Assembly: GCA_000403495.2 (NCBI GenBank)
Contig: KE159819.1
Location: forward strand, 76,020-113,766
DNA length: 37,747 bases
Origin: Lachnospiraceae bacterium 10-1
GTDB taxonomy: Bacteria > Bacillota > Clostridia > Lachnospirales > Lachnospiraceae
Reading direction: 5' to 3'
Part shown: piece after piece, positions 2,389 through 19,772 of the stretch
How positions within the stretch are numbered: position 1 is the stretch's first letter
Layout of the letters: every line of letters begins with the position of its first letter
Made by a program: the position numbers and the translations under genes
The notes under the pieces: generated by a model
Told to the model about the DNA's origin: nothing
Database searches by the model: none
The model's input: the letters and a program-made list of their open reading frames with translations, nothing else

Positions 2389-2444
2389 GACAATAAAGAA
2401 TGTTTTAAATAAATTTAAAGTGGAACATGGAAAGGTCAGGAAAA

Positions 2445-3527
2445 ATGAGAACTTACTTGGTAACAGGCGGAGCCGGATTTATCGGTTCGAATTATATTCA
2501 CTATATGTTTAAAAAATATGACAAGGAAATTAGAATCATTAATGTAGATGCACTTACTTACGCAGGAAATCTTGAGAATCTTAAAGCGTTGGAAGGCAGG
2601 GAAAACTACACATTTGTGAAGGCCGATATCTGCGATAAGGATGCCATTTCTAAAATATTTGCAGAAAATGAGATTGACAGAGTGGTACATTTTGCGGCGG
2701 AAAGCCATGTGGACAGAAGTATTAAGACGCCGGAGATTTTTGTACAGACCAATGTACTTGGAACTGCAGTTATGTTAAACTGTGCCAAGGCAGCCTGGGA
2801 AAATCCGGATGGTACTTTTAAAGAGGATAAGAAGTTTTTGCATGTATCTACAGATGAGGTTTATGGTTCCTTAGAGGAAGATGGCGGATACTTTTATGAA
2901 ACCACGCCCTATGCGCCTCACAGCCCGTATTCAGCCAGCAAGGCCGGCTCGGACATGCTGGTTAAGGCCTATATGGATACTTATAAGTTTCCTGCAAATA
3001 TTACAAACTGCTCTAATAATTATGGTCCTTACCAGTTCCCTGAGAAACTAATTCCGCTAATTATCAACAATGCGCTGCAGGGCAGGAAGCTTCCTGTTTA
3101 CGGAGATGGAAAGAATGTTCGTGACTGGCTTTATGTGGAAGATCATGCAAAGGCAATTGATATGGTACAGGAAAAAGGCAGGCTTTTTGAGACCTATAAT
3201 GTAGGCGGTCATAATGAAAAGCAGAATATAGAGATTATTCACATTATTTTAGATACTTTGCAGGAAATGCTTCCAGAAGGAGATCCCAGAAAAAAACTTG
3301 TAAGTGAAGAGCTGATTACTTTTGTGGAAGACCGCAAGGGGCATGACAGAAGATATGCCATTGCTCCTGATAAGATTAAGGCTGAGATTGGATGGGAGCC
3401 GGAAACTATGTTTAAGGAAGGCATCAAACGCACCATTGCCTGGTTTTTTGAACATGAGGAATGGATGAAAAATGTAACCAGCGGAGATTACCAGAAGTAT
3501 TATGATGATATGTACAAGAACCGTTAA
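2445..3527 (+). CDS. rfbB: dTDP-glucose 4,6-dehydratase
   Basis: This 360-residue short-chain dehydrogenase/reductase converts dTDP-glucose to dTDP-4-keto-6-deoxyglucose, the second step towards dTDP-rhamnose. The NAD-binding TGGAGFIG motif is at residues 7-14, the STDEVYG motif at 135-141 and the catalytic Y-x-x-x-K pair at 162/166 (PYSASK). FAAESHVDRS is also typical of RmlB. The length is normal. An upstream in-frame ATG at 2427 adds six residues, but the family starts right before the nucleotide-binding strand, so 2445 is preferred; AAAGG at 2431-2435 can serve it. The gene follows the muramidase and is separated from rfbA by a terminator-like hairpin and a promoter. Confidence 0.95.
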   Translation: MRTYLVTGGAGFIGSNYIHYMFKKYDKEIRIINVDALTYAGNLENLKALEGRENYTFVKADICDKDAISKIFAENEIDRVVHFAAESHVDRSIKTPEIFVQTNVLGTAVMLNCAKAAWENPDGTFKEDKKFLHVSTDEVYGSLEEDGGYFYETTPYAPHSPYSASKAGSDMLVKAYMDTYKFPANITNCSNNYGPYQFPEKLIPLIINNALQGRKLPVYGDGKNVRDWLYVEDHAKAIDMVQEKGRLFETYNVGGHNEKQNIEIIHIILDTLQEMLPEGDPRKKLVSEELITFVEDRKGHDRRYAIAPDKIKAEIGWEPETMFKEGIKRTIAWFFEHEEWMKNVTSGDYQKYYDDMYKNR

Positions 3528-3570
3528 AATTTCCACCCTGATGAATTCCCGCCTGTGGCAGGATAGAGGA

Positions 3571-3600
3571 ATGGGAGTGATTTACAATCACTCCCATTTT
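3571..3600 (+). terminator. Hairpin after rfbB
   Basis: A perfect 10-bp stem (3571-3580 with 3588-3597) closes a 7-nt loop and runs into a short T tract, which fits a Rho-independent terminator after rfbB. The T tract is only four bases, so readthrough is likely. Confidence 0.6.
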
Positions 3601-3610
3601 ATGGTATACT
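3581..3610 (+). promoter_or_regulatory. Sigma-A-type promoter for rfbA, overlapping the terminator hairpin
   Basis: TTTACA at 3581-3586 and TATACT at 3605-3610 are separated by 18 bp. Each matches the consensus at five of six positions. The -35 lies in the loop of the preceding terminator hairpin. Confidence 0.5.
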
Positions 3611-3696
3611 TATAAAAGTTTTCGGCAGCAAATGCTTTAAGAAAATAAGATCCGGAATGTGACAGGATTTTGAATAAATAAGAATGGAGGATCAAA

Positions 3697-4566
3697 ATGA
3701 AAGGAATTATACTGGCCGGAGGTTCAGGCACAAGGCTTTACCCGCTGACTAAGGCAATTAGTAAACAGATTATGCCGGTTTATGATAAGCCGATGATTTA
3801 TTATCCTTTGTCAACACTTATGCTGGCAGGGATCAGAGAGGTGCTGATTATTTCCACTCCCAGGGATCTGCCTGTTTTTGAAGCACTTTTGGAGGATGGA
3901 AGCCAGCTTGGCATGTCTTTTTCTTATGCGGTTCAGGAAAGCCCCAGAGGGCTTGCTGATGCATTTATCATCGGTGCTGAATTTATTGGAAAAGATAATG
4001 TTGCGCTTGTTTTAGGGGATAATATCTTTTACGGACAAAGCTTTTCCAGAGTACTTAGGGAAGTGGCTTCCAGAGAAAAGGGAGCAACTATTTTTGGATA
4101 TTATGTGCGGGATCCCAGAGAGTATGGCGTGGTGGAGTTTGATCAGACGGGGAAGGCTCTTTCCATTGAAGAGAAGCCGGAAAAACCTAAGAGCAATTAC
4201 GCAGTGCCAGGTCTGTATTTTTATGATAATAATGTGGTGGAAATTGCAGCAAATGTAAAACCTTCTGCAAGAGGAGAAATTGAGATCACCAGCGTTAATA
4301 ATGAATATTTAAGAAGAGGTACGCTGCATGTGGAAACCTTAGGGAGAGGATTTGCATGGCTGGATACGGGAAATCATGATTCCCTTTTGGATGCGGCAGA
4401 CTTTGTGGCGGCTTTTCAGAAAAGACAGGGGCTGTATATTTCCTGCATTGAGGAAATTGCATACAAAAGAGACTTCATTAACAGGGAACAGCTTCTTAAA
4501 CTGGCTGAGCCTTTAATGAAGACGAATTACGGTAAATACATGAAGGATGTGGCCGACGGATTATAA
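3697..4566 (+). CDS. rfbA: Glucose-1-phosphate thymidylyltransferase
   Basis: A 289-residue nucleotidyltransferase that makes dTDP-glucose from glucose-1-phosphate and dTTP, the first committed step of dTDP-deoxysugar synthesis. The N-terminal signature [11 protein letters not shown] (from residue 8) and the K-QIMP motif that follows bind the nucleotide; GDNIFYG and [13 protein letters not shown] are also typical of RmlA. The length equals that of the short RmlA family. The start is well placed behind GGAGG. The substrate probably comes from the phosphosugar mutase encoded at 14.1 kb in the same locus. Confidence 0.96.
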
Positions 4567-4625
4567 TTGCAGACTCCTGAAGATAAAAAAGATTATAGTG
4601 AAAGAGGATAAGAAGGGAAAGAAAT

Positions 4626-5192
4626 ATGGGAAAGATAATAGTAGAAACATGTGAAATTGAAGGATTAAAAGTAATTACTCCGGCTGTTTTTGGTGATGCC
4701 AGGGGATATTTTATGGAAACCTACAATTATAATGATTTTAAAGAAGCTGGAATTGAGCAGGTATTTGTTCAGGATAATCAGTCGGCTTCCGTAAAAAATG
4801 TACTAAGGGGGCTGCATTTTCAGATGAATCATCCCCAGGACAAGCTGGTAAGAGTGATCTCGGGAGAAGTTTTTGATGTTGCCGTGGACTTAAGACAGGA
4901 TTCAAAAACCTACGGAAAGTGGTTTGGTGTGGTTCTATCTGCTGAAAATAAGAAGCAGTTTTTTATTCCTAAAAATTTTGCCCATGGTTTTGTGGTTTTG
5001 TCGGATTATGCGGAATTTGCATATAAATGTACAGACTTTTATCATCCGGGTGACGAAGGGGGACTTATGTTTGACGATCCTGATATTGGAGTTAAGTGGC
5101 CCTTTGAAGAAGGAACTGAATTGATTATGGCCGATAAGGATAAAAACTGGGGAAGCTTTAAAGAATATACAGAAAGCAGAAAGAACGGATAA
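4626..5192 (+). CDS. rfbC: dTDP-4-dehydrorhamnose 3,5-epimerase
   Basis: A 188-residue cupin-fold epimerase that turns dTDP-4-keto-6-deoxyglucose into dTDP-4-keto-rhamnose. The RGLHFQ motif carries the catalytic histidine (H64), and FFIPKNFAHGFVVL and YKCTDFYHPGDEGG are family motifs. The length is normal. No rfbD reductase lies in the window, so the final step to dTDP-rhamnose must be encoded elsewhere, or the end product is another 6-deoxysugar. The exporter permease begins 5 bp after its stop, which argues for one transcript. Confidence 0.95.
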   Translation: MGKIIVETCEIEGLKVITPAVFGDARGYFMETYNYNDFKEAGIEQVFVQDNQSASVKNVLRGLHFQMNHPQDKLVRVISGEVFDVAVDLRQDSKTYGKWFGVVLSAENKKQFFIPKNFAHGFVVLSDYAEFAYKCTDFYHPGDEGGLMFDDPDIGVKWPFEEGTELIMADKDKNWGSFKEYTESRKNG

Positions 5193-5197
5193 GTAAT

Positions 5198-6229
5198 ATG
5201 GACAGCCGTATTAAAAATAACAAGCGTTTTCAAATAAAAAAACCACCGAAGCTTTTGGGAATTGGAATTTTTTGGAGCATTTGTATTATTGTTGCAATAA
5301 TGGTATTGATGCATAATAATCCTCTTGCACCTGATCCTTATACGGAAAATCTGAAAAAATACTGCGCCTGTGCGCTGCTTGCACTGGCAGCTATTATTTT
5401 CGGCGTGTATTATGATCGAATGTTTATTATTCCCAAGGAGCTGTTTCAAAGCAGGGAATTGATTTGGAAACTTGCAAAAAATGATTTTAAGAAGCGCTAT
5501 GCAGGTTCTTATCTGGGATTTTTGTGGGCGTTGGTGCAACCGGTGGTAACGGTGGTCATGTATTGGATCGTTTTTGATAAAGTGTTTCAGACGCGCTCAC
5601 AGATGGTTTCAAGCGGGGTTGAGGTTCCTTATGTTTTGTTTCTGACCTCAGGCCTGGTGCCTTGGTTTTATTTTTCAGAAGCCATTACCAACGGGACAAA
5701 TGCACTTTTAGAGTACAGTTATCTGGTAAAGAAGGTAGTATTTAATATTAGTATTCTGCCTATCATCAAGCTGATTGCGGCGACTTTTATTCATGTCTTT
5801 TTTGTGGCTGTGCTTTTGATCGTTGCTGCATGTTATGGTTATTTTCCCACACCTTATACTTTGCAGATTATTTATTATAGTTTTTGCATGTTTGTTCTGG
5901 TACTTGCCATGAGTTACTGCACCTGCGCAATTGTGGTGTTTTTCAGGGATCTGGCGCAGATTATTAACATTGGTCTTCAGGTTTTGATGTGGGCAACACC
6001 GATTTTATGGAATATTGGTATGCTGAATGACGATAATGTTATTACATTATTTAAATTAAATCCTCTTGTTTATATTGTAAATGGTTTCCGAAATGCAATT
6101 TATGGGGATGAATGGTTTTGGGAACACTTTTATTCCTCTACTTATTTTTGGATATTTACGGTTACACTGTTTTGTGTCGGCTCATTGATTTTTAAAAGAT
6201 TAAAAGTGCATTTTGCAGATGTACTTTAA
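5198..6229 (+). CDS. wzm: ABC-2 type polysaccharide exporter, permease subunit (Wzm-like)
   Basis: A 343-residue membrane protein forming the channel of an ABC exporter that moves lipid-linked glycans across the membrane. The ABC-2 core begins near residue 88 (ELIWKLAKNDFKKRYAGSYLGFLWALVQPV as consecutive family features) and has about six hydrophobic helices, ending with the VNGFRNAIYG region typical of polysaccharide exporters. It is longer than the usual 260 residues because of an extra N-terminal helix pair (about residues 22-70). The ATP-binding partner follows 53 bp later. Polymer export is firm for the family; the identity of the polymer is not known. Confidence 0.9.
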   Translation: MDSRIKNNKRFQIKKPPKLLGIGIFWSICIIVAIMVLMHNNPLAPDPYTENLKKYCACALLALAAIIFGVYYDRMFIIPKELFQSRELIWKLAKNDFKKRYAGSYLGFLWALVQPVVTVVMYWIVFDKVFQTRSQMVSSGVEVPYVLFLTSGLVPWFYFSEAITNGTNALLEYSYLVKKVVFNISILPIIKLIAATFIHVFFVAVLLIVAACYGYFPTPYTLQIIYYSFCMFVLVLAMSYCTCAIVVFFRDLAQIINIGLQVLMWATPILWNIGMLNDDNVITLFKLNPLVYIVNGFRNAIYGDEWFWEHFYSSTYFWIFTVTLFCVGSLIFKRLKVHFADVL

Positions 6230-6282
6230 GAAAAGTTTAAAATGGAATATCTTGCAGCAAATGCTTCGGAATGGAGATTAGC

Positions 6283-7581
6283 ATGGAAGAAAAAAGGACG
6301 ATTATAGAAGTAAAAGATCTGGAAAAGGCATATAAGCTTTATGACAAACCTTCGGACAGATTAAAGGAAGCGCTGGGACTTGGCAGAAAAAAGCGGTACA
6401 AGGAGCATTATGCATTAAAAGGCGTGGATTTAAATGTGTTTCAGGGGGAAACTGTGGGCATAATAGGCACTAATGGCTCAGGAAAATCCACTATTTTAAA
6501 AATTATCACTGGTGTTCTTAATCCTACCAAAGGCCTGGTGCGTGTAGATGGGAGAATTTCTGCATTGTTGGAGCTGGGGGCTGGCTTTAACATGGAGTAC
6601 AACGGAATTGAAAATATTTATTTGAATGGCACAATGATGGGATTTTCCAAAAGGGAAATTGATGCCAAAATGGATGACATATTAGGATTTGCTGATATTG
6701 GGGACTATGTTTACCAGCCGGTAAAAACCTATTCCAGCGGTATGTTTGTGCGGCTGGCTTTTGCCCTTGCCATTAATATTGAGCCGGAAATTTTGATTGT
6801 AGATGAGGCGTTGTCTGTTGGAGATGTGTTTTTTCAGGCAAAATGCTATCATAAATTTGATGAATTTAAGCAGATGGGGAAAACAATTCTCTTTGTAAGT
6901 CATGATTTAAGCAGCATAAGCAAATACTGTGACAGGGTAGTGCTTTTAAATCAGGGTGTAAAGTTAGGAGAGGGTTCTCCCAAGGAAATGATAGATGCCT
7001 ATAAGCAGGTACTTGTGGGACAGTATCCTTTTGGAGGAGAAAATGGCGATGAACTACTTCACGACAAGGATATTAAGGCGGCCGCACAGGCAGCTGTAAT
7101 GGGAACGACAGGTGGAGAAGGCCTTATCAATCCTGACCTTCTTGAGTATGGAACAAAGGCGGCTGTTATTGAAGAATATTATGTGACAGATGAAGAGGGA
7201 AGGCCATCTAATGCAATTATTAAAGGGCAAAAATGCAGTGTACATATGAAAGTGCATTTTGAAAAGGATGTTCAGGCGCCTATTTTTGCATTTACCATAA
7301 AAAATATTAAAGGTGTAGAAATTACAGGCACAAATACTATGGTTGAAAAAGCTTTTTTAGAGCCTGCCCGGGCTGGCACAAAAAAGAAGATCACTTTTAC
7401 CCAGAATATTGACCTTCAGGGAGGAGAATACCTGCTTTCTCTGGGAGTGACAGGATATGAAAATGAAGATTTTCAGGTATACCATAGATTATATGATGTA
7501 TTAAATTTAACGGTGATTTCCGACAAGGATACCGTGGGGTTCTATGACACAAACTCAGAAATTGCGATAGCTGATGTATAA
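6283..7581 (+). CDS. wzt: ABC polysaccharide exporter ATPase with C-terminal glycan-binding-like domain (Wzt-like)
   Basis: A 432-residue ATPase. Walker A GTNGSGKST is at residues 62-70, the signature YSSGM at 150-154 (the form used by polysaccharide exporters), Walker B ILIVDE at 170-175 and the H-loop histidine at 207. The ATPase ends near residue 240. The region from about 285 to 432 has alternating strands like the Wzt C-terminal beta-sandwich, which in Gram-negative systems binds the capped chain end before export. An upstream ATG at 6271 is in frame, but GGAG at 6273-6276 sits six bases before 6283, so the later start is chosen. The neighbour downstream is a possible chain-capping enzyme, which fits this domain. 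Confidence 0.92.
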   Translation: MEEKRTIIEVKDLEKAYKLYDKPSDRLKEALGLGRKKRYKEHYALKGVDLNVFQGETVGIIGTNGSGKSTILKIITGVLNPTKGLVRVDGRISALLELGAGFNMEYNGIENIYLNGTMMGFSKREIDAKMDDILGFADIGDYVYQPVKTYSSGMFVRLAFALAINIEPEILIVDEALSVGDVFFQAKCYHKFDEFKQMGKTILFVSHDLSSISKYCDRVVLLNQGVKLGEGSPKEMIDAYKQVLVGQYPFGGENGDELLHDKDIKAAAQAAVMGTTGGEGLINPDLLEYGTKAAVIEEYYVTDEEGRPSNAIIKGQKCSVHMKVHFEKDVQAPIFAFTIKNIKGVEITGTNTMVEKAFLEPARAGTKKKITFTQNIDLQGGEYLLSLGVTGYENEDFQVYHRLYDVLNLTVISDKDTVGFYDTNSEIAIADV

Positions 7582-7598
7582 AAGAAAGGAAACATTTC

Positions 7599-9704
7599 AT
7601 GAGGGAAGAAGTAAAAAGACCAGCGCCAATTCATTTAAAAGAAGGAGAACTGCTGGGCAAGCTGCCTGAAAAAATAGGAAATGTGACTTTAAATTATAAG
7701 TTTTATCCGGGAGAGGATTTTTATAGCGACGGTGTGATTGAAGATGAAATATTGAAGATTGTGAAGGATGCTTCCAGGGTGGAATATCTTTCTATTATAG
7801 AGGAGCGAAAAAGCTGGCCTGTTTTATACCATTTATCACCTCTTAGGGGAAATATTGTAGACTGGCTTCCTATAAAACCCGGAGATAAAGTGCTGGAAAT
7901 AGGCTCTGGCTGCGGTGCGATCACGGACAAGCTTTCTGAAAAGGCAAAAAATGTTACCTGTGTGGACCTGTCTGCCAAAAGAAGCCATATCAATGCATAT
8001 AGAAATCAGGATAAAGATAATATTGAAATTTTTGTTGGGAATTTTGCAGATATAGAACCTTCCCTTGATAATGATTATGATTTTGCCTGTATGATAGGTG
8101 TGTTTGAATATGGACAGTCCTATATTGCGTCAAAGACACCGTATGAAGATTTTCTTAATATAATGAGAAAACATGTTAAAAATAACGGACGTATTGTTAT
8201 TGCAATTGAAAACAAATTTGGCCTTAAATATTGGGCGGGGTGTAAGGAAGATCATCTGGGCACTTATTTTTCCGGTTTGGAAGGGTATCCTGATGGCGGA
8301 AGTGCGCGTACATTTACCCGTTCCGGCTTAGAGAGAATATTTAAAAAATGTGGTGTGGAAAACTATTCTTTTTACTACCCTTATCCTGATTATAAGTTTC
8401 CTACTGCAATTTATTCAGATAAGCGCTTGCCTGATTCAGGTGAACTGACAGATAACATCCGTAATTTTGACAGAGACAGAATGGTACTTTTTAATGAAAA
8501 GTACGTGTTTGATGGTATTACAAAGGATCATTTATTTGATGTATTCTCTAATTCCTATTTGGTTGTGATTGGTGAAGACACCAATATAGATTATGTAAAA
8601 TATTCCAATGACAGGGCTGTGGATTTTGCATTAAGGACGGAGATTTTAGATACGCCTAAGGGGCGTGTAGTGCATAAGGTGCCTTTAAGCGGGGAAGCAA
8701 AAGAACATATTAAAAGCATGAAAAAATCTTATGAGCTTTTAAAGAAACGCTATGAAGGAAGCAGCCTTTTAATTAATCCCTGTGAAATTTCAGCAGATGG
8801 TTCATATGCAGAATTTCCTTTTGAAAAGGGAATTACACTGGAAGTGCTTTTGGACGAGTGCCTGGATGAGAACGACATGGAAGGGTTTTATAAGTTATTT
8901 GACCGGTATTTGGAATTAATCTCTTATGGAGAAGAATGTCAGGTGACAGATTATGACCTTATTTTTGCCAATATCCTGGTAGATGGTGATACCTGGACAG
9001 TAATTGATTATGAATGGACTGTGGAAAAGCAGATTCCAACCTCAGAAATTGCATTCAGGGCCCTTTATTGCTATGTTTTGGAAGAAGAAAAACGAAATAA
9101 ATTAAATCTGGATTTATTAATTAGCAAAATGGGGATTACTCAGCAGGAGGCAGAAGACTATAGGGAGAAGGAAAGCCGCTTTCAGAAGCAGGTTACCGGA
9201 AAACGCCGCTCTATGGGAGAAATCAGGGCATCCCTCGGCACTTACTGCGTTGATCCAAAAGAGTTAATGGAACATCATTTGCAGAAAATACTGGATCAGA
9301 GAATTCAGGTTTATTATGACAGAGGAAATGGGTTTAGTGAGGAAGATTCCTTTTACCTGCCAGATGTATACACAGAGAAGTACCTGATTGAGGCGGACAT
9401 TTTTGTGGATGGTAATGTGAAAACATTAAGGATAGATCCGGCAGACCGTGCCTGCATGGTTAAAATTCTGGAAATAAGCATGAATGGAAAGGCTGTCCCT
9501 CTTCAAAAAAAGTATATTGAGACCAATGGAAAGGCTGTAAAGGCCGGTTCTTATATTTTTGACACTGCGGATCCTAATATCAGCATTAAAGTGACAGAAC
9601 TTCCAATGGCTGGTGAGAATACTTTGTCTCTTAAAATGAAGCTGATACCCATGCCGGAAGATATGGCTCAGGATATGATGGGTGCCGTGAAACGATTTTT
9701 TTAA
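7599..9704 (+). CDS. SAM methyltransferase plus kinase-like protein, possible glycan chain terminator (WbdD-like architecture)
   Basis: A 701-residue protein with three parts. Residues about 75-270 form a class I SAM methyltransferase, with the SAM-binding glycines in VLEIGSGCGAITD (98-110), VDLS at 122-125 and the MIGVFEYG strand at 165-172. Residues about 340-495 look like an aminoglycoside-phosphotransferase or protein-kinase fold: a lysine in RVVHKVPL (K360) followed by a helix starting EAKEHI, then D-x-x-x-x-N (D453, N458) in DLIFANILVDG and D470 in VIDYEW. Residues about 570-701 are probably a beta-rich accessory domain. WbdD in E. coli O8/O9a caps O-antigen with the same two activities beside Wzm/Wzt. 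The gene begins 17 bp after the ATPase gene. The domain calls are moderately firm; the capping role is inferred. Confidence 0.7.
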   Translation: MREEVKRPAPIHLKEGELLGKLPEKIGNVTLNYKFYPGEDFYSDGVIEDEILKIVKDASRVEYLSIIEERKSWPVLYHLSPLRGNIVDWLPIKPGDKVLEIGSGCGAITDKLSEKAKNVTCVDLSAKRSHINAYRNQDKDNIEIFVGNFADIEPSLDNDYDFACMIGVFEYGQSYIASKTPYEDFLNIMRKHVKNNGRIVIAIENKFGLKYWAGCKEDHLGTYFSGLEGYPDGGSARTFTRSGLERIFKKCGVENYSFYYPYPDYKFPTAIYSDKRLPDSGELTDNIRNFDRDRMVLFNEKYVFDGITKDHLFDVFSNSYLVVIGEDTNIDYVKYSNDRAVDFALRTEILDTPKGRVVHKVPLSGEAKEHIKSMKKSYELLKKRYEGSSLLINPCEISADGSYAEFPFEKGITLEVLLDECLDENDMEGFYKLFDRYLELISYGEECQVTDYDLIFANILVDGDTWTVIDYEWTVEKQIPTSEIAFRALYCYVLEEEKRNKLNLDLLISKMGITQQEAEDYREKESRFQKQVTGKRRSMGEIRASLGTYCVDPKELMEHHLQKILDQRIQVYYDRGNGFSEEDSFYLPDVYTEKYLIEADIFVDGNVKTLRIDPADRACMVKILEISMNGKAVPLQKKYIETNGKAVKAGSYIFDTADPNISIKVTELPMAGENTLSLKMKLIPMPEDMAQDMMGAVKRFF

Positions 9705-11916: not shown

Positions 11917-13905
11917 ATGGTTATTCATATGGAACAGGAAATGAACTATCAAGAGGCGTATGAAAAAGAACATTTAAGAAATGCGGATTTAGCAGGAAGA
12001 GTGGCGGATTTAGAGGCAAGGTGCGATGACCTAACCTTTAAGCTGAACAGAATTAAAAATAATCCTTTGTGGAAAATGTCTGCTCCCTTACGCCGATGTA
12101 TGCATTTTGTGATCCGTCAGAAGGACAGAATAAAAAACTGTGGAAATTTAAAGGGAATTATAGCAAAAATAAAATATAAAAAAATTGAACGTCAGGCAAT
12201 GGGCAGTTACGGAAGCAGCAGCTTTCCCACACCGGAGGAAGCCAAAAGACAAAGGGAAGAAAAATTTACAAGGATGCCTAAAATCAGCATTTTGGTGCCT
12301 CTTTATAATACACCGGAAAATTTCCTTCGTGAAATGATTGAATCGGTAACCAGCCAGACCTATGAAAATTGGGAATTATGTCTGGCGGACGGTTCCGATA
12401 AAGAGCATGATCTTGTGGCTGAAACGATAGCTGAATATAAAAAAAAGGATGAGGCTTCTGGTAAAAGCGGCAGAATTCTCTACCAAAAGCTGAAAAAAAA
12501 TGAAGGAATCTCGGGAAATACAAATCAGTGCCTGGCTATGGCAACAGGTGAATATATTGGGCTTTTTGACCATGACGACATTCTCCATCCCAGTGTTTTG
12601 TATGAATATGTGAAGGTGATCAACGAACAACAGGCAGATTACATATACTGCGATGAAACCACCTTTAAAAGCGGGGATATTAACAAAATGCTGACCATGC
12701 ATTTTAAGCCGGATTATGCCATTGATAACCTGCGGGCAAACAATTATATCTGTCATTTCAGCGTTTTTGCCAGAAAACTTTTAGACGGTACGGAGCTGTT
12801 CCGTCCCAGATTTGACGGAAGTCAGGATCATGATATGATTCTGCGGCTTACGGACAGGGCGGAAAAAGTGGTACATGTTCCTAAGCTGATGTATTATTGG
12901 CGTTCTCATGCAGGCAGTACGGCGGCCGGTATTGATGCAAAGCCTTATGCGGTGGAAGCCGCAAAGGGAGCAGTGGCAGACCACTTAAAAAGACATGGTT
13001 TTGAGCATTTTCAGATCAGCTCCACCAGAGCCTTTGATACTATTTTTAAGATCCGCTATCAGATCATCGGCAGTCCGAAGATTTCTATTGTGATTGCAAA
13101 TAAAGACCATAAGGAAGATTTAAAGAGATGCATTACATCTATTTTGGAAAAATCCACTTATGAAAATTATGAAATTATTGTTGTGGAAAACAACAGTACC
13201 CAGCAGGAAATCTTTGATTATTATGAGGAATTGAAAGAAAATGAAAAAATCAGGGTACTTACCTATGAGGGGGAATTTAATTATTCGGCTGTAAATAATT
13301 TAGGGGTGGCGAATGCAAATGGAGAATATATTTTACTTCTTAACAATGACACTCAGGTAATTACGGTCAACTGGATGGAAGAACTGCTTATGTATGCCCA
13401 GCGTGAAGACGTGGGAGCAGTGGGGGCAAAACTTTATTATGCCGACAAAACCATCCAGCATGCAGGGGTAGTACTTGGACTGGGTGCTCACAGAACAGCA
13501 GGACACAGCCATTATAAACAGCACAGGGACAATTTAGGCTACATGGGCAGGCTCTGTTACGCCCAGAACGTTTCTGCAGTTACCGGCGCATGTCTTTTGG
13601 TGAAAAAAGCCTTATTTGAGGAAGCCGGCAGACTGGATGAGTCCTTTGCAGTATCTTTAAATGACGTGGATTTCTGCTTGAAACTAAGGGAAAAGGGCTA
13701 TTTAAATGTGTTTACGCCTTTTGCCGAATTGTATCATTTTGAATCTATATCCAGAGGCCTTGATGATAACGGAGAAAAGGCGCGCAGATATAACAAAGAA
13801 TCGGAGCGGTTCAGGGAAAAGTGGAAGGATGTGCTTAAAGCAGGCGATCCCTATTACAATGCAAATTTTTCTCTGGACAGAAGTGACTTTGCTTTGAAAA
13901 TATAG
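11917..13905 (+). CDS. Tandem two-domain GT2 glycosyltransferase
   Basis: A 662-residue protein with an N-terminal coiled coil (about residues 12-50), a family linker (NPLWKMSAPLRR), and two full GT2 domains. Domain one spans about 121-350 (KISILVPLYN, LFDHDDILHP, YCDETTF). Domain two spans about 387-640 (KISIVIANKD, IVVENNST, LLNNDTQV, SLNDVDFCLKLREKGY). Both keep the nucleotide-binding and metal-binding acidic motifs, so both may be active and could add two sugars or alternate linkages in a repeat unit. In-frame ATGs at 11917, 11929 and 11941 are possible starts and none has an ideal SD; AAAGG is at 11911-11915. Substrates are not known. Confidence 0.88.
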   Translation: MVIHMEQEMNYQEAYEKEHLRNADLAGRVADLEARCDDLTFKLNRIKNNPLWKMSAPLRRCMHFVIRQKDRIKNCGNLKGIIAKIKYKKIERQAMGSYGSSSFPTPEEAKRQREEKFTRMPKISILVPLYNTPENFLREMIESVTSQTYENWELCLADGSDKEHDLVAETIAEYKKKDEASGKSGRILYQKLKKNEGISGNTNQCLAMATGEYIGLFDHDDILHPSVLYEYVKVINEQQADYIYCDETTFKSGDINKMLTMHFKPDYAIDNLRANNYICHFSVFARKLLDGTELFRPRFDGSQDHDMILRLTDRAEKVVHVPKLMYYWRSHAGSTAAGIDAKPYAVEAAKGAVADHLKRHGFEHFQISSTRAFDTIFKIRYQIIGSPKISIVIANKDHKEDLKRCITSILEKSTYENYEIIVVENNSTQQEIFDYYEELKENEKIRVLTYEGEFNYSAVNNLGVANANGEYILLLNNDTQVITVNWMEELLMYAQREDVGAVGAKLYYADKTIQHAGVVLGLGAHRTAGHSHYKQHRDNLGYMGRLCYAQNVSAVTGACLLVKKALFEEAGRLDESFAVSLNDVDFCLKLREKGYLNVFTPFAELYHFESISRGLDDNGEKARRYNKESERFREKWKDVLKAGDPYYNANFSLDRSDFALKI

Positions 13906-13944: not shown

Positions 13945-14082
13945 AACAAGGAGGCTAAATCCGGCACAGCTTGCTGGGCATTGCTCCATGCAAGGGCAGT
14001 CGCATTTTGCTTCACAAAACAAGGAGGCTAAATCCTCTGCTCCTGCAAGGGCAGTCGCATTTTGCTTCACAAAACAAGGAGG
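13945..14082 (+). repeat. Direct repeats each carrying an AAGGAGG Shine-Dalgarno
   Basis: An 18-bp block starting AACAAGGAGG occurs at 13945-13962 and 14018-14035, and its first ten bases again at 14073-14082, where it is the real ribosome site of the mutase gene. A 39-bp stretch (13989-14027) is repeated without change at 14044-14082. The unit lengths are 73 and 55 bp, differing by an internal 18-bp indel. The 183-bp gap between the two genes consists mostly of this repeat. Confidence 0.9.
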
Positions 14083-14088
14083 ATTGGT

Positions 14089-15810
14089 ATGGACTACAAA
14101 AAACAGTATGATTTTTGGCTGGAAGATGCGTACTTTGATGACAAGACAAAAGAAGAACTGCGTGGAATTGCAGGAGATGAAAAAGAAATAGAAGACCGTT
14201 TTTATAAAGAGCTTGAATTTGGTACTGGAGGTCTTAGAGGCGTCATTGGCGCTGGAACCAACCGCATGAATATTTACACGGTAAGAAAGGCAACACAAGG
14301 ACTTGCAAATTATATTATCAGTCAGGGTGGAAAGGACAGAGGCGTTGCCATTGCCTATGATTCCAGAAGGATGTCTCCTGAGTTTGCAGATGAAGCGGCG
14401 CTTTGCCTTGCGGCAAACGGAATTAAGGCTTATGTGTTTGATGCACTCCGCCCTACTCCCGAGCTTTCCTTTGCACTTCGTACCTTGGGCTGCATTTCAG
14501 GTATTGTGATTACCGCAAGCCATAATCCTCCGGAATATAACGGATATAAGGCATACTGGGAAGATGGCGCCCAGGTTACAGCGCCTAAAGACAAAGAAAT
14601 TATTGAAGAAGTTAAGAAGGTTACGGATTATCATCAGGTAAAGACAATGGACAAAGCCAAGGCTTTGGAAGAAGGACTTTATCAGGTAATTGGAAAAGAA
14701 ATTGATGATGCTTATATGGTGGAACTGAAAAAACAGATTATTCATCCTGAAATCATCAAAGAGGTGGCAGATGATATACGAATCGTATATTCACCTTTCC
14801 ACGGAACCGGGAATGTGCCGGTTAGAAGGATACTTTCCGAGCTGGGCTTTAAACATGTGTATGTAGTTCCTGAGCAGGAGCTGCCGGATCCTGATTTTAC
14901 CACATTAGACTACCCCAATCCGGAAGATCCCAAAGCATTTATCCTTGCTCTTAAGCTGGCAAAAGAGAAAAATGCGGATATTGTACTTGCAACAGATCCT
15001 GATGCAGACAGACTTGGCATTTATGCTTTAGATAAAGCTTCTGGCGAGTATATTCCTTTTACAGGAAATATGTCTGGCATGCTGATTGCAGAATATATCT
15101 TAAAAGAAAGAACTGCTACCGGAAAAATGCCTGAAAATCCGGCACTGGTAACTACCATTGTTACCACCAATATGGCATCAGCCATTGCAAGAGATTATAA
15201 TGTAAAATTTATAGAGGTACTTACAGGCTTTAAATACATAGGAGAGCAGATTAAGCTGTTTGAGCAGACCGGTTCCAACAATTATGTATTTGGCCTTGAA
15301 GAAAGCTATGGCTGTCTTGCAGGCACACATGCAAGGGACAAGGACGCGGTGGTTGCGGTTATGTGCCTGTGCGAAGTGGCTGCATGGTGTAAGAAAAATG
15401 GAATCACCGTGTGGGATCAGATGCTGAAACTGTATGAAAAATACGGTTATTTTAAGGAAACTCAGTACGCCATCACATTAAAGGGAATCGACGGCTCCAG
15501 ACAAATTGCGGAAATGATGGATAAATTAAGAAGCAATCCGCCTAAGAGCTTTGGAGAGCTGACTGTAAAGGAATTAAGGGACTACGACAAGGATGTGACA
15601 AAGAATATGGCCACTGGCGAAGAGACTCCTACCGGACTGCCAAAATCAAATGTGCTGTATTTTGATCTTACCAATGATTCATGGTGCTGCGCACGCCCTT
15701 CAGGTACGGAGCCCAAAATTAAATTTTATATGGGAGTGAAAGGAAGCAGTCTTTCGGATGCTCAGGATAAGGTAGAAAAGCTTACGGAAGCATTGAAATC
15801 TTATCTTTAA
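14089..15810 (+). CDS. pgcA: Phosphoglucomutase/phosphomannomutase family protein
   Basis: A 573-residue alpha-D-phosphohexomutase, which interconverts hexose-6-phosphate and hexose-1-phosphate and so can supply glucose-1-phosphate to RfbA. The phosphoserine loop TASHNPPEYNGYK, the metal loop DPDADRLGI, the sugar loop GLEESYG and the phosphate-binding RPSGTEPKIKFY are all present in the order expected for the PgcA/PGM2-like branch. The start is ATG 14089 with AAGGAGG six bases upstream; an in-frame TTG at 14062 has no such site. The gene sits in the middle of the polysaccharide locus, which supports a role in sugar-nucleotide supply. Whether glucose or mannose phosphate is preferred cannot be told from the sequence. 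Confidence 0.93.
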   Translation: MDYKKQYDFWLEDAYFDDKTKEELRGIAGDEKEIEDRFYKELEFGTGGLRGVIGAGTNRMNIYTVRKATQGLANYIISQGGKDRGVAIAYDSRRMSPEFADEAALCLAANGIKAYVFDALRPTPELSFALRTLGCISGIVITASHNPPEYNGYKAYWEDGAQVTAPKDKEIIEEVKKVTDYHQVKTMDKAKALEEGLYQVIGKEIDDAYMVELKKQIIHPEIIKEVADDIRIVYSPFHGTGNVPVRRILSELGFKHVYVVPEQELPDPDFTTLDYPNPEDPKAFILALKLAKEKNADIVLATDPDADRLGIYALDKASGEYIPFTGNMSGMLIAEYILKERTATGKMPENPALVTTIVTTNMASAIARDYNVKFIEVLTGFKYIGEQIKLFEQTGSNNYVFGLEESYGCLAGTHARDKDAVVAVMCLCEVAAWCKKNGITVWDQMLKLYEKYGYFKETQYAITLKGIDGSRQIAEMMDKLRSNPPKSFGELTVKELRDYDKDVTKNMATGEETPTGLPKSNVLYFDLTNDSWCCARPSGTEPKIKFYMGVKGSSLSDAQDKVEKLTEALKSYL

Positions 15811-15890: not shown

Positions 15891-15948
15891 GATTATACAC
15901 AAGTAGGGCAATATGGCAGGCAGCGCTCGCCATATGCATGGGGGTAAA

Positions 15949-17328
15949 ATGGGAAGAATTGTTAAGATTAGCAACTTGAAAAAAACGCTGCGGTATTTAA
16001 GAAAAAATGGAATACGCAGGGCATATTATGCTATGAAGGAAAGGGTGCAGTCAGAGAGGGAGGAGGACTATACTTATACTGTGCCGCAGGAGCTTTGTCT
16101 TAGGAAGCAGATAGAGGAAGGGAAGAAGTTTTCCATAAGGTTCAGCATTCTTGTGCCGGCCTTTGAGACAAAAGAAGAGTATCTGCGGGATATGGTGGAT
16201 TCTGTCTTATCTCAGACTTATGGTAATTTTGAATTGATCATTGCTGATGCGTCGGCTACGGATCAGGTGGAAAATGTCATAAAAGAATATTCGGATAAGC
16301 GGATTATGTACAGAAGGCTTAAGCTGAACGCAGGTATTTCAGCTAACACAAATCAGGCATTAATGTATGCTACAGGAGATTATGCAGCATTGCTTGATCA
16401 TGATGATATACTCACACCGGATGCACTTTTTGAAATGGCGGCTTGCATTGACAGCCATGAGAAAAAAGAAATCCAATTGCAGATGTTGTATTCTGATGAG
16501 GATAAGTGTGACGAAAACCAGTCACACTATTATGAGGTGAACAAAAAGCCTGATTTTAATTTAGATCTGATTTTATCCAACAACTATATCTGCCATTTTA
16601 TGGTAATGAAGCGTCAATTGATGCAGGAGCTTACTTTTCGAAGTGTATGCGACGGAGCACAGGATTATGACCTTGTGCTGCGGGCAGTAAATGTAATGCT
16701 TGGAAAAGACAGGCTGCGGACAAGCAAAGTAGAGCTTCCGGTGGCTCATGTGGGAAAGGTTTTGTATCATTGGAGATGCCATGAAAAATCCACGGCAGAA
16801 AATCCGGCCAGCAAGCAATATGCTTATGATGCAGGAAAAAGAGCATTGGAAGATTTCCTGCGTGCAAGAGGCTGGAAGGGAACCGTCTCTGACCTAAGAC
16901 ATCTTGGATTTTACAGAATAGAATATCAGCCGGATCTTTTGTCTAACAGACCGGATACAGCAGTGGTAGGTGGAAAATTAATCAGTAAAAATAAAATAAC
17001 AGGTGGTATATATACTGCTGAAGGTAAGCCGCTTTATCAGGGGCTTCATAAGGAATTCAGCGGTTATATGCATCGGGCAGTCTTACGCCAGGAAGCTGAA
17101 TTGATAGATGTGCGATGTATGAAGGTTTCCCATCCTGCAGAGGCAGTTTTGGAGGAATTAATTGGACTGCCTTACCTGCCCCACCCGGGAAATGGACGTT
17201 TTGACTGGCGCGACAGTTTAAACAGTGAAGTGGATTATCTGGATTTAAGCCGCAGATTTTGTGAACGAATCAGACAGCTGGGATACAGAATCGTATGGGA
17301 TCCGGATATGACGGAAAAGGTTAATTAG
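15949..17328 (+). CDS. Glycosyltransferase: intact GT2 domain plus degenerate second GT domain
   Basis: A 459-residue protein. A full GT2 domain lies at about 64-300 (FSILVPAFET, LIIADASAT, LLDHDDILTP, YSDEDKCDE, DGAQDYDLVLRA). The C-terminal part, about 320-459, resembles the second half of a second GT2 domain, including VVGGKL and a final FCERIRQLGYRIVWDP that mirrors the FCLKLREKGY region of the gene at 11.9 kb. It lacks the nucleotide-binding half. ATG 15949 follows a GGGGG tract; an upstream ATG at 15913 is in frame, lies in a small inverted repeat (ATATGGC/GCCATAT) and adds 12 non-conserved residues. One active site is expected. The sugar is not known. Confidence 0.85.
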   Translation: MGRIVKISNLKKTLRYLRKNGIRRAYYAMKERVQSEREEDYTYTVPQELCLRKQIEEGKKFSIRFSILVPAFETKEEYLRDMVDSVLSQTYGNFELIIADASATDQVENVIKEYSDKRIMYRRLKLNAGISANTNQALMYATGDYAALLDHDDILTPDALFEMAACIDSHEKKEIQLQMLYSDEDKCDENQSHYYEVNKKPDFNLDLILSNNYICHFMVMKRQLMQELTFRSVCDGAQDYDLVLRAVNVMLGKDRLRTSKVELPVAHVGKVLYHWRCHEKSTAENPASKQYAYDAGKRALEDFLRARGWKGTVSDLRHLGFYRIEYQPDLLSNRPDTAVVGGKLISKNKITGGIYTAEGKPLYQGLHKEFSGYMHRAVLRQEAELIDVRCMKVSHPAEAVLEELIGLPYLPHPGNGRFDWRDSLNSEVDYLDLSRRFCERIRQLGYRIVWDPDMTEKVN

Positions 17329-17332
17329 CATT

Positions 17333-18301
17333 ATGGCAAGAACTACGGTGGTGATACCTAACTATCAGGGAATTAAATATATTGAAGCCTGTTTGTCCTC
17401 TCTTTATCAGGGATCGGTGGTTCCGGAAGTAATTCTGGTGGATAATGCCTCAGGCGACGGAAGTCTTTCACTGGTCAAAGAAAAATTTCCCCAGGTTCAG
17501 ATAATAGCGTTTACATCCAATACCGGATTCTGTAAAGCTGTCAATGAGGGAATCAGAGCGGCAGAAACGGAATTTGTGCTGCTTTTAAATAATGATACGG
17601 TGGCAGATCATGATATGGTAAAAGAGCTTGAGGCTTCCCTTGACAGGTACCCGAAAGCATTTTCTTCCGGCGCAAAAATGATCAGTCTTCATGACAAAAG
17701 CAGATTAGATGGAGCCGGAGACTTTTACTGTGCTTTAGGATGGGGATTTTCAAGGGGAAAGGGAAAGCCGGCAGATGCTTATAACCGCCCTGTGAGGACT
17801 TTTTCTGCCTGTGCGGGCGCTGCAATTTACAGGCGGAGAATATTTGAAAAAATTGGATATTTTGATGAAAATCATTTTGCTTATTTGGAAGATATTGATA
17901 TTGGGTATCGTGCCAATATTTATGGATATCATAATAGATACCAGCCGGAGGCAAAGGTTTTTCATGCAGGAAGCGCTGCCAGCGGCTCCAGATATAACGT
18001 TTTTAAAGTGAAGCAGTCTGCAAGAAATAATGTGTATTTAATATATAAAAACATGCCATTTTTACAGATTTTAATAAACCTTCCATTTTTGGCGGTGGGA
18101 TTTGGAATCAAATATCTGTTTTTCTTAAGAAAAGGAATGGGCAGTGATTATTGCAGGGCTTTTAAAGAGGGCTTTGCTGTTTGCAAAACAAATCCGGCAA
18201 AGAAAACAAAGGTGAAATTTTCTTTTAAAAGAATAAAAAATTATTTATGGATACAGATACAACTATGGTTTAACATAGTAAGACGAATGTGTGACTTTTA
18301 A
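17333..18301 (+). CDS. GT2 family glycosyltransferase
   Basis: A 322-residue single-domain GT2 enzyme of the WbbL/rhamnosyltransferase-like group. TTVVIPNYQG opens the fold, VILVDNASGDGS binds the nucleotide, LLLNNDTV supplies the metal-binding acidic pair, and YLEDIDIGYRANIYGY is the later acceptor-side motif. A hydrophobic stretch near residues 240-262 and a basic C-terminus suggest membrane association. It starts 4 bp after the previous glycosyltransferase stop, so the two are translationally linked. The dTDP-rhamnose pathway nearby makes rhamnose a plausible donor, but this is inference. Confidence 0.88.
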   Translation: MARTTVVIPNYQGIKYIEACLSSLYQGSVVPEVILVDNASGDGSLSLVKEKFPQVQIIAFTSNTGFCKAVNEGIRAAETEFVLLLNNDTVADHDMVKELEASLDRYPKAFSSGAKMISLHDKSRLDGAGDFYCALGWGFSRGKGKPADAYNRPVRTFSACAGAAIYRRRIFEKIGYFDENHFAYLEDIDIGYRANIYGYHNRYQPEAKVFHAGSAASGSRYNVFKVKQSARNNVYLIYKNMPFLQILINLPFLAVGFGIKYLFFLRKGMGSDYCRAFKEGFAVCKTNPAKKTKVKFSFKRIKNYLWIQIQLWFNIVRRMCDF

Positions 18302-18362: not shown

Positions 18363-19772
18363 ATGATCAAGGACAATCAAAAGTATTTTAATAGACTGCA
18401 CTTGCTGGTGGATGCTGTTGTAGTGGCAATCTCTTATCTGTTTGCATGGTATTTAAAGTTTTGTACGATTCTTGCAGATACGGAGCCAGGCGCAGGTGCG
18501 CTTGATATGGGGACCTATTTTGGATTCCTCTATTTTCTTGTACCCGAATATATCATTTTATACTACTTTTTTCACTTGTATGCACCGAAACGTGCTACCA
18601 GGCGTAAATATGAAATTTCCGGTATTCTTAAGGCAAATACCGTGGGGATCGTTATTTTTATCGTATTCCTTTACATGATAAAGCAGCCGGATTTCTCCCG
18701 GACCATGATGGGTGCCTTTTATGTAATTAACATTGCATTTACAACAATCTGCCGCACGATGATACGAAACATGCTGCTGTATTTCAGGAAAAAGGGATAT
18801 AATCTGAAATATATTTTGCTGGTGGGATACTCAAGGGCGGCGGAGGAATATATCACCAGAATCAATGCAAATCCACAATGGGGATATGTGGTTCGGGGAA
18901 TTTTAGATGACCGGATTCCCAGCGGCACGCTTTATAAGGGCGTAAAGGTGGTGGGAAGGATTGAAAATATTAAGTACATTCTTCCCGAAAATAAGCTGGA
19001 TGAAATTGCTATTACTCTTGCACTTAAGGATTATGATCATTTGGAAGCGATTGTTGATTTATGTGAAAAGTCAGGGGTTCATACAAAGTTCATTCCTGAT
19101 TACAATTCACTGGTGCCCAGCCATCCTTATACGGAAGATTTAATGGGACTTCCGGTAATCAATATCCGGTATGTACCTCTTACCAATACATTAAACTGGA
19201 TTTTAAAGCGGGCGGTAGATGTTCTTGGAGCTGTTGTAGGGATTGTAATTTCTTCTCCCATTATGCTCCTTGCGGCATTGGCAGTGCGGCTTACAAGCCG
19301 TGGGCCGGTTATTTTTAAACAGGAAAGAGTGGGGCTTCACAATAAAACCTTTAAAATGTACAAGTTCCGGACGATGGCAATGCAGAAGCCTTCTGCAGAA
19401 CAGAAGGCATGGACGGTAAAGGATGATCCGAGGGTTACCGGTGTGGGCAAATTTTTAAGAAGGACCAGCTTAGATGAGCTTCCACAATTATTTAATATTT
19501 TAATGGGAGAAATGTCGCTGGTAGGTCCAAGGCCGGAGCGGCCACAGTTTGTGGAACAATTTAAGGAAGAAATTCCCCGTTATATGATAAAACATCAGGT
19601 GAGGCCGGGACTTACCGGATGGGCGCAGATTAATGGCTATAGAGGAGATACCTCAATTCGAAAAAGAATTGAATACGACTTATTTTACATTGAAAACTGG
19701 ACCATGGCATTAGATTTTAAAATTATGTTTCTCACTATATTTAAAGGGTTTGTTAATAAAAATGCTTATTAG
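18363..19772 (+). CDS. Polyprenyl-phosphate sugar-1-phosphate transferase (priming glycosyltransferase)
   Basis: A 469-residue member of the WbaP/CpsE class, which moves a sugar-1-phosphate from a nucleotide sugar onto undecaprenyl phosphate and so starts the glycan chain. Several N-terminal helices (residues about 12-130) are followed by a Rossmann-like domain (about 145-260) and the C-terminal catalytic domain. The last starts with KRAVDVLGAVVGIV and contains KFRTM, LRRTSLDELPQLFNIL, GEMSLVGPRPE and RPGLTGWAQI, all hallmark motifs. The length is normal for the full-size class. Presence of a primer together with an ABC exporter supports polymer building on a lipid carrier inside the cell. 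Glucose or galactose phosphate is the usual substrate in the family. Confidence 0.95.
   Translation: MIKDNQKYFNRLHLLVDAVVVAISYLFAWYLKFCTILADTEPGAGALDMGTYFGFLYFLVPEYIILYYFFHLYAPKRATRRKYEISGILKANTVGIVIFIVFLYMIKQPDFSRTMMGAFYVINIAFTTICRTMIRNMLLYFRKKGYNLKYILLVGYSRAAEEYITRINANPQWGYVVRGILDDRIPSGTLYKGVKVVGRIENIKYILPENKLDEIAITLALKDYDHLEAIVDLCEKSGVHTKFIPDYNSLVPSHPYTEDLMGLPVINIRYVPLTNTLNWILKRAVDVLGAVVGIVISSPIMLLAALAVRLTSRGPVIFKQERVGLHNKTFKMYKFRTMAMQKPSAEQKAWTVKDDPRVTGVGKFLRRTSLDELPQLFNILMGEMSLVGPRPERPQFVEQFKEEIPRYMIKHQVRPGLTGWAQINGYRGDTSIRKRIEYDLFYIENWTMALDFKIMFLTIFKGFVNKNAY

Follow-up and report, generated by a model that had tools for sequence, protein, structure and literature searches.

How Gram-positive bacteria sense the completion of a wall polysaccharide that is exported by an ABC transporter is, to our knowledge, little understood. 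A capping signal is known from the outer-membrane sugars of some Gram-negative bacteria. The window analysed here (37,747 nucleotides of Lachnospiraceae bacterium 10-1) raises the question whether such a signal could also operate at a Gram-positive wall: a single gene run encodes a Wzm permease, a Wzt ATPase with a cap-binding-type domain and a 701-amino-acid methyltransferase-kinase (MTK; Table 1).

Gene order and proposed route of the polymer

As noted in the preliminary description, 17 bp separate wzt and the MTK gene in the window. The upstream order rmlB-rmlA-rmlC is kept in many relatives. Downstream, the phosphoglucomutase/phosphomannomutase gene probably starts later than the listed TTG. 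The WcaJ-type phosphotransferase is predicted to initiate the chain, and the LCP-family transferase is proposed to attach it to peptidoglycan. That the LCP gene belongs to the same gene run, as assumed earlier, was borne out: in 18 of 20 relatives the first matched gene to follow the phosphotransferase encoded the LCP enzyme, the stretches of the other two ending before a complete phosphotransferase gene.

Table 1. Features of the export locus, with positions in the window
Feature	Positions	Strand	Basis
rmlB, rmlA, rmlC: dTDP-rhamnose precursor genes	2427..5192	+	names assigned from translations
Wzm-type ABC permease, 343 aa	5198..6229	+	PF01061 E 7.5e-16
Wzt-type ATPase, C-terminal cap-binding-type domain, 436 aa	6271..7581	+	ABC_tran E 4.3e-21; Wzt_C E 3.4e-41
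Wzt_C domain, residues 292-426 of Wzt	7144..7548	+	PF14524 match; nearest solved domain 2r5o
MTK: methyltransferase, kinase, beta-rich domain, 701 aa	7599..9704	+	AlphaFold model; tblastn to Pseudomonas ORF6-like protein
MTK class I SAM methyltransferase domain, residues about 20-327	7656..8579	+	
MTK kinase domain, residues 316-567 (K360, D453, N458, D470, E472)	8544..9299	+	
MTK beta-rich C-terminal domain, residues 568-701	9300..9701	+	model strands; profile match to Pseudomonas post-kinase segment
gtA, family 2 glycosyltransferase, 709 aa	9713..11842	+	PF00535 E 1.1e-13
gtB, two GT2 domains, 662 aa	11917..13905	+	PF00535 in two stretches
gtB N-terminal short heptad-rich stretch, then LWKxSxPxR-type motif	11944..12063	+	heptad scan (crude)
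Phosphoglucomutase/phosphomannomutase	14062..15810	+	PF02878 E 2.9e-43
gtC and gtD, GT2 glycosyltransferases	15913..18301	+	PF00535 E 4.4e-27 and 1.8e-21
WcaJ-type undecaprenyl-phosphate glucose phosphotransferase	18363..19772	+	TIGR03023 504.9 bits, cut-off 410.75
LCP-family glycopolymer transferase	19962..21104	+	PF03816 E 3e-32

We consider it likely that MTK is the terminator of a rhamnose-type wall polysaccharide that takes the ABC-transporter route, bears a methylphosphate cap read by Wzt and is attached by the LCP enzyme, and that the system is a split variant, lacking the long coil, of the terminator-polymerase ORF6 from the Klebsiella pneumoniae O7 locus (ORF6-O7). MTK probably caps the end at which the chain grows with methyl-phosphate, and this cap would tell the exporter that the chain is complete. 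WcaJ would start the chain on undecaprenyl phosphate, and gtA to gtD, including the two-domain GT2 protein gtB, would extend it. The MTK kinase would then phosphorylate the non-reducing terminal sugar, whereupon elongation would stop, and the methyltransferase would methylate the terminal phosphate. By recognising the methylphosphate-capped end, the Wzt C-terminal domain would pass the chain on to the Wzm/Wzt exporter; the chain would then be linked to peptidoglycan by the LCP enzyme. What we computed are the folds, catalytic-residue conservation, ORF6-like homology, trio conservation and Wzt_C co-occurrence; from these we infer chemistry, substrate, cap reading and attachment.

Domains of the methyltransferase-kinase and its closest characterised relative

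In the full-length AlphaFold model of MTK (pLDDT 89.7, pTM 0.81), a SAM methyltransferase is followed by a kinase of the protein-kinase/APH-like type and by a C-terminus rich in beta strands. Since the fold search with this model was filled by methyltransferases, the kinase domain was also folded alone. A kinase-like fold was predicted for residues 316-567, a range that includes residues 340-495 of the preliminary description. The WbdD structure was not among the matches listed for either the full-length model or the kinase alone, an absence that does not argue against a resemblance. K360, D453, N458 and D470, which had been aligned with phosphotransferase motifs, were almost invariant. Predicted folds and conserved catalytic residues thus support the two activities that the preliminary description had predicted.

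Neither Pfam nor NCBIfam assigned the kinase domain to any kinase family, and its N-lobe is poorly conserved. Both observations would fit an inactive kinase that serves as scaffold or binding domain, methylation alone being of importance. We regard this as highly improbable, because D453, N458, D470 and E472 were retained in 113-114 of 116 divergent kinase domains, which is unexpected for a dead kinase. The position aligned with K360 is occupied by H in a Pseudomonas protein and by R in Citrobacter, and that of D470 by E in Citrobacter; possible reasons are a misaligned N-lobe and a variation in the chemistry. A scan of 64 kinase segments gave scattered weak family matches, with choline kinase and RIO1 found in one member each. 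A kinase profile match to the designed protein ThreeFoil was treated as chance.

By sequence comparison, the characterised protein closest to MTK that we found is ORF6, the K. pneumoniae O7 terminator described in 2024, rather than WbdD. This link runs via a Pseudomonas protein and the residue numbers published in PMC11231755. The Pseudomonas ORF6-like protein (1457 amino acids) is encoded on a P. asturiensis plasmid, where its gene directly follows genes for an ABC permease and a Wzt_C ATPase. MTK matched it by tblastn (26.5% over 82%, E 3e-42), and a gtB profile matched residues 913-1449 of its 1457 residues with 481.5 bits. Its residues Y28, Y66, G91, G93, E112 and Y158 carry the numbers given for the SAM site of ORF6-O7 (PMC11231755) and align with Y42, Y77, G102, G104, D123 and Y171 of MTK, D123 standing where ORF6 has E. 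MTK D453 aligned with Pseudomonas D443, two residues off the mutated catalytic D441 of ORF6 (PMC11231755). The motif AIENxxGLKYxAGxxEDHxG is common to the window MTK and the Pseudomonas and Citrobacter proteins, and the beta-rich domain gave a profile match to the Pseudomonas protein (residues 561-696, E 1.2e-5).

According to the available text of PMC11231755, ORF6-O7 produces a 3-O-methylphosphate on rhamnose, the polymer stays inside the cell when the kinase is dead, and its authors call the kinase "quite different" from that of WbdD. As in MTK, the methyltransferase is followed by an unannotated kinase. A predicted immunoglobulin-like domain comes next in ORF6-O7; the corresponding part of MTK is beta-rich. 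The last part of ORF6-O7 consists of two GT2 modules, and the glycosyltransferase part of the Pseudomonas homologue matches gtB. However, ORF6-O7 unites terminator and polymerase in a single protein, with a coiled coil between the two, whereas the window encodes MTK and gtB separately; judged by sequence, the window looks like an O7 machine split into two genes. In addition, the O7 chain is a Gram-negative O antigen ligated to lipid A-core, whereas the gene run of the window includes an LCP gene. ORF6-O7 acts on a rhamnose terminus, and we propose the same for MTK: by analogy with O7, its substrate is probably terminal rhamnose, modified at position 3.

WbdD was the comparison drawn in the preliminary description, which gave it two activities in E. 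coli O8/O9a. As PMC3482155 describes it, this applies only to O9/O9a, and in O8 WbdD is a plain methyltransferase. As is proposed for MTK, WbdD of E. coli O9a / K. pneumoniae O3 ends chain growth by capping, using a methyltransferase and a kinase, and its gene is separate from that of the polymerase (PMC3482155). Asp and Asn are five residues apart in both kinases (D351-N356 in WbdD; D453-x4-N458 in MTK), with 12 residues to the last Asp in MTK (D470) versus 13 in WbdD (D369), a pattern common among kinases. In contrast to MTK, WbdD carries a long C-terminal coiled-coil ruler and works on mannan (PMC3482155).

Pairing with the Wzt C-terminal domain

The C-terminal extension of Wzt had been compared with a cap reader, and the profile searches agree: Wzt consists of an ABC ATPase and a PF14524 domain with homology to solved cap-binding domains. 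Against the PDB, the Wzt_C profile matched 2r5o (E 2.9e-12), 8dku from Aquifex aeolicus (5.4e-7) and 5hno (0.0069). The best match, 2r5o, we take to be Wzt_C from E. coli O9a, an exporter of methylphosphate-capped chains. We infer that the Wzt_C domain of the window recognises a capped chain end. The homologous domain of A. aeolicus Wzt reads a capped non-reducing end, but there the cap is described as a plain 3-O-methyl on mannose or rhamnose and the organism is Gram-negative (PMC9445017).

In every one of the 73 relatives whose upstream sequence reached 2.5 kb or more, the trio of Wzm, Wzt and MTK was conserved. MTK was carried by 128 of the 250 sampled Lachnospiraceae genomes (E <= 1e-10), and it co-occurred with one high-scoring Wzt_C subtype: in counts that ignore shared ancestry, as do the locus counts below, 123 genomes had both, five MTK only, one Wzt only and 121 neither. 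The single Wzt-only genome showed weak methyltransferase and kinase matches beside its wzt. Among the five MTK-only genomes, one had a partial (G205) and one a weak Wzt_C (G242); no Wzt_C was found at E 1e-5 in the other three (G076, G186, G188). Of the 120 loci with the high-scoring Wzt_C, 113 had both methyltransferase and kinase nearby; of the 20 with the low-scoring kind, none did. Kinase distances were tracked better by Wzt_C than by the Wzt ATPase domain (partial rho 0.355 versus 0.172, 111 loci); methyltransferase distances showed the opposite trend (ATPase domain 0.251, Wzt_C 0.137). A search of phage records for MTK yielded three faecal contigs without annotation and one weak match from a Klebsiella phage.

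This near-exclusive pairing bears on the possibility that MTK adds phosphate and methyl groups within the polymer or to its side chains, and plays no role in chain ends or export. Gram-positive rhamnans can bear phosphate-linked groups, such as glycerol phosphate in Streptococcus mutans (PMC11754754), and MTK has no ruler. Yet MTK is paired with one Wzt_C subtype, sits right after wzt and is homologous to a relative of a proven terminator, and we consider mere decoration very unlikely.

MTK could also be a terminator whose cap consists of phosphate and a separate sugar O-methyl, or of phosphate alone. In a comparison by published residue numbers, no counterpart of the phosphate-binding H132, H133 and R203 of WbdD was identified in MTK, which reads GVFEYG after strand 4, with no His pair seen there. 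Furthermore, WsaE makes a plain 2-O-methyl cap (PMC2943079), and in 46 of the 120 high-scoring loci methyltransferase and kinase each have their own gene, so one protein is not needed for both. However, the split genes usually remain adjacent, and MTK shares the SAM-site residues and the EDH-type motif with the ORF6-like protein, ORF6-O7 itself being described as methylating the phosphate. We therefore regard such alternative caps as unlikely and retain the methylphosphate cap.

Chain length and meaning for the Lachnospiraceae

The preliminary description had suggested that the beta-rich C-terminus replaces the ruler of WbdD. This does not hold, since ORF6-O7 is described as having a predicted immunoglobulin-like domain at this place and a coiled coil as well (PMC11231755). 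MTK has no long coiled coil, the longest helix in its model measuring 19 residues; a short heptad-rich stretch lies at the start of gtB, two genes downstream. Within the first 140 residues, [WYF]xx[STA]xPx[RK] was present in 52 of 69 gtB homologues and the stricter [RH]IKxxxLWKxSxPxR in 37. Some fused forms of the same family contain a long heptad-rich linker between kinase and glycosyltransferase, as read by eye. The heptad scan is crude, also flagging parts of MTK and gtA that are not coils according to the model or the family matches, and was used only alongside the AlphaFold model and the fused-form linkers.

Without a ruler on the terminator, length control may work differently. Tentatively, and with somewhat less than even confidence, we suggest that a whole Gram-positive gut family controls export by a kinase-made methylphosphate cap with a ruler-free terminator, length being set by competition or complex formation between the free terminator and a short-coil polymerase; together with the fused long-coil relatives, such forms would then make up a natural gradation from having a ruler to lacking one.

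Methyl capping together with Wzm/Wzt, earlier called unexpected in a Gram-positive, has a precedent in WsaE of Geobacillus stearothermophilus (PMC2943079). Like the window, this system is Gram-positive, with a rhamnan, predicted Wzm/Wzt export and WbaP-type initiation. WsaE combines an N-terminal methyltransferase, which makes the cap, with two glycosyltransferases, and no kinase is described in the available text; MTK has a kinase and no glycosyltransferase. Unlike in our proposal, the cap is 2-O-methyl and the chain goes to an S-layer protein (PMC2943079). Among the matches listed in a search of open-licence literature (titles and abstract starts), there was no Gram-positive methyltransferase-kinase terminator or kinase-made cap.

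Should the signal be a methylphosphate cap, one could search for it directly at the ends of purified Lachnospiraceae wall glycans. That a single family contains fused, split and coil-less forms also provides a test case for the ruler model. The Lachnospiraceae are a major gut family, and about half of the sampled genomes carry MTK. For one member, Ruminococcus gnavus, the rhamnan wall polymers are reported to stimulate the immune system (PMC12413058), and the end group of such polymers could therefore matter to the host.

Gene run and proposed attachment to peptidoglycan

In the window's genome (4.57 Mb), a single strand-uniform run with short gaps encodes a GH25 protein, rmlB, rmlA, rmlC, wzm, wzt, a methyltransferase-kinase (MTK), gtA, gtB, pgm, gtC, gtD, a WcaJ-type phosphotransferase, an LCP protein and a further glycosyltransferase (GT). 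Wzt bears the C-terminal domain Wzt_C (PF14524, E 3.4e-41), and wzt and MTK are 17 bp apart. The nearest named MTK relative, from Lachnospiraceae bacterium UBA7199 (L031), is 90% identical. A GH25-type match was also present upstream of rmlB in 47 of the 63 related loci that show rmlB. The sulfatase-type membrane protein is possibly an LTA-synthase-like enzyme.

Two further features of the window
Feature	Positions	Profile match	Place
GH25 muramidase-like protein with SpaA-type domain, Pro/Thr-rich stretch and choline-binding-type repeat	364-2388		gene run
Membrane protein with sulfatase-type domain	30881-33109	PF00884, E 1.1e-24	outside gene run

Downstream sequence was long in 20 relatives. 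In 18 of them the first matched gene to follow the phosphotransferase was the LCP gene; the other two stretches (L276, L280) end before a complete phosphotransferase gene. For Ruminococcus gnavus, a rhamnan polymer is described as joined to muramic acid via a phosphodiester (PMC12413058). Because of this link and the LCP family member in the run, we infer that the polymer would be attached to peptidoglycan by the LCP protein.

Conservation of the trio and pairing with Wzt_C

MTK was matched in 147 of the 250 sampled Lachnospiraceae genomes (tblastn, E <= 0.001), and 128 of the 250 reached E 1e-10. Of 291 genomes from the wider class, 18 reached the latter value, nine from the family (the window's genome included) and nine from outside. 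The preliminary description suggested checking whether the trio of permease, ATPase with extension and methyltransferase-kinase is conserved across Lachnospiraceae, and conservation was borne out. Among 80 loci with flanks, 73 had at least 2.5 kb upstream and were kept (7 were dropped); wzm and a wzt with C-terminal domain lay upstream of MTK in all 73. The wzt-MTK gap was at most 177 nt in 69 of these and 464 nt in one (L066, long reading frame), while in three (L067, L077, L078) a gtB-matching protein of 1221-1237 aa sits between the two genes. This linkage is a direct result of the computation. MTK relatives (39-57% identity) were also found in the phages collection, in three human faecal records labelled 'Bacteriophage sp.' and lacking annotation (MT839147.1, MT836085.1, MT836982.1), possibly bacterial contigs misfiled as phage.

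PF14524 was matched in 147 of the 250 genomes. Scored with a profile derived from relatives of the window, the fetched Wzt_C domains split into two groups, with at least 173 bits versus at most 46 bits. We fetched 140 places: 120 high-scoring ones, one per genome, from the 124 genomes with this kind (G000, which is the window's genome, G170, G179 and G240 were left out), and 20 of the listed low-scoring places. In the fetched stretches, methyltransferase and kinase profiles both matched around 113 of the 120 high-scoring domains, the kinase alone around 3 and neither around 4, versus a methyltransferase-kinase in 0 of the 20 low-scoring stretches (L233-L252). Every one of the seven exceptional genomes has an MTK-type match at some place in its sequence.

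Co-occurrence of the Wzt extension with the methyltransferase-kinase also held by genome for the high-scoring kind: 123 of the 250 genomes had both and 121 neither, versus 6 with one only, namely MTK in five and Wzt in one (Fisher 3.6e-64, a statistic that ignores relatedness). Among the five, G205 has a partial and G242 a weak Wzt_C, and G076, G186 and G188 have zero at E 1e-5. The Wzt-alone genome, G081, has an MTK match of E 4.6e-5, and weak methyltransferase and kinase matches adjoin its wzt (L178). In the 120 high-scoring loci the module was fused as methyltransferase-kinase in 54 and as methyltransferase-kinase-GT in 13, split into methyltransferase and kinase-GT in 23, otherwise split in 23 and incomplete in 7. 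Since methyltransferase and kinase co-occur while their fusion state differs, the two activities travel together.

Across 111 loci, kinase distances correlated with Wzt_C distances at rho 0.498 (partial 0.355, with the Wzt ATPase domain controlled for) and less closely with those of the ATPase domain (rho 0.406; partial 0.172, with Wzt_C controlled for). The methyltransferase showed the opposite order, with a partial correlation of 0.137 with Wzt_C versus 0.251 with the ATPase domain. The pattern, in correlations that still include shared descent, is consistent with Wzt_C reading a group that bears phosphate. The best solved match of the Wzt_C profile was 2r5o (E 2.9e-12), presumably the O9a Wzt C-terminal domain, followed by A. 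aeolicus (5.4e-7) and 5hno (0.0069).

ORF6 of K. pneumoniae O7 and the coiled coil

The closest known system identified is that of ORF6, the K. pneumoniae O7 terminator-polymerase. It is described as one chain in which a methyltransferase is followed by an unannotated kinase of 223 residues, an Ig-like domain, a coiled coil and two GT2 modules, whereas the window has MTK and gtB as two genes. ORF6 reportedly phosphorylates the terminal rhamnose at O3 and methylates that phosphate, partly in vitro; in D441A the kinase is dead and the polymer is not exported. Its orthologues are placed in alpha- and gammaproteobacteria and cyanobacteria, with one homologue in a methanogen, and the term 'Gram-positive' occurs 0 times in that paper (PMC11231755).

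Two of 72,556 plasmid records matched MTK at E <= 0.001, encoding a Pseudomonas asturiensis protein of 1457 aa (26.5% over 82%, E 3e-42) and a Citrobacter braakii protein of 649 aa (29.9% over 44%, E 5e-29). Both genes lie directly 3' of ABC permease and Wzt_C ATPase genes. Tyr28, Tyr66, Gly91, Gly93, Glu112 and Tyr158 of the Pseudomonas protein have the residue numbers reported for ORF6, and its D443 is close to ORF6 D441 in numbering. MTK Y42, Y77, G102, G104, D123, Y171 and D453 align with these seven in turn, with the caveat to strict identity that, in this alignment, H (Pseudomonas) and R (Citrobacter) stand at the K360 position, and E at that of D470 in Citrobacter. The gtB profile matches the Pseudomonas protein at residues 913-1449 (481.5 bits), and the profile of the MTK C-terminus does so at 561-696 (E 1.2e-5); MTK and gtB are therefore counterparts of one ORF6-like protein. 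The predicted folds, the residues and the homology, all obtained by computation, suggest a chain-terminating chemistry for MTK. The Citrobacter plasmid, pF217-3, is typed conjugative and carries rml genes, wzm, wzt and the MTK-like gene with an adjoining IS630 transposase; a mobile element here carries a polysaccharide cluster. Its MTK-like protein has a heptad-rich C-terminal tail.

Both WbdD, the E. coli O9a terminator, and ORF6 are described with a coiled coil, extended in WbdD (PMC3482155, PMC11231755), whereas MTK has no long coil and no helix above 19 residues in the predicted model. A crude heptad scan revealed a short heptad-rich stretch at the gtB N-terminus. The gtB motif [WYF]xx[STA]xPx[RK] occurs in 52 of 69 homologues and the stricter form [RH]IKxxxLWKxSxPxR in 37. 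Kinase and GT share a single chain in 38 proteins of the family; 12 of their linkers were inspected by eye, and several of these are long and heptad-rich (e.g. L229, L199, L165, L197), and those of L139, L136 and L192 are not. Given the missing coil on MTK, the heptad stretch on gtB and the linkers of the fused relatives, we read the beta-rich C-terminus as an inherited companion domain and not, as originally proposed, as a substitute for the WbdD coil in a putative length control.

Precedent and novelty

Capping combined with Wzm/Wzt export had been considered unexpected in a Gram-positive. For methyl capping this view falls away, as the Gram-positive Geobacillus enzyme WsaE is described with a methyl-capped rhamnan and predicted Wzm/Wzt export (PMC2943079); the window's system adds the predicted kinase. 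What appears to be new is a kinase in a Gram-positive methyl-capping system, together with the LCP-bearing gene run, the breadth within Lachnospiraceae and the split, coil-less form.
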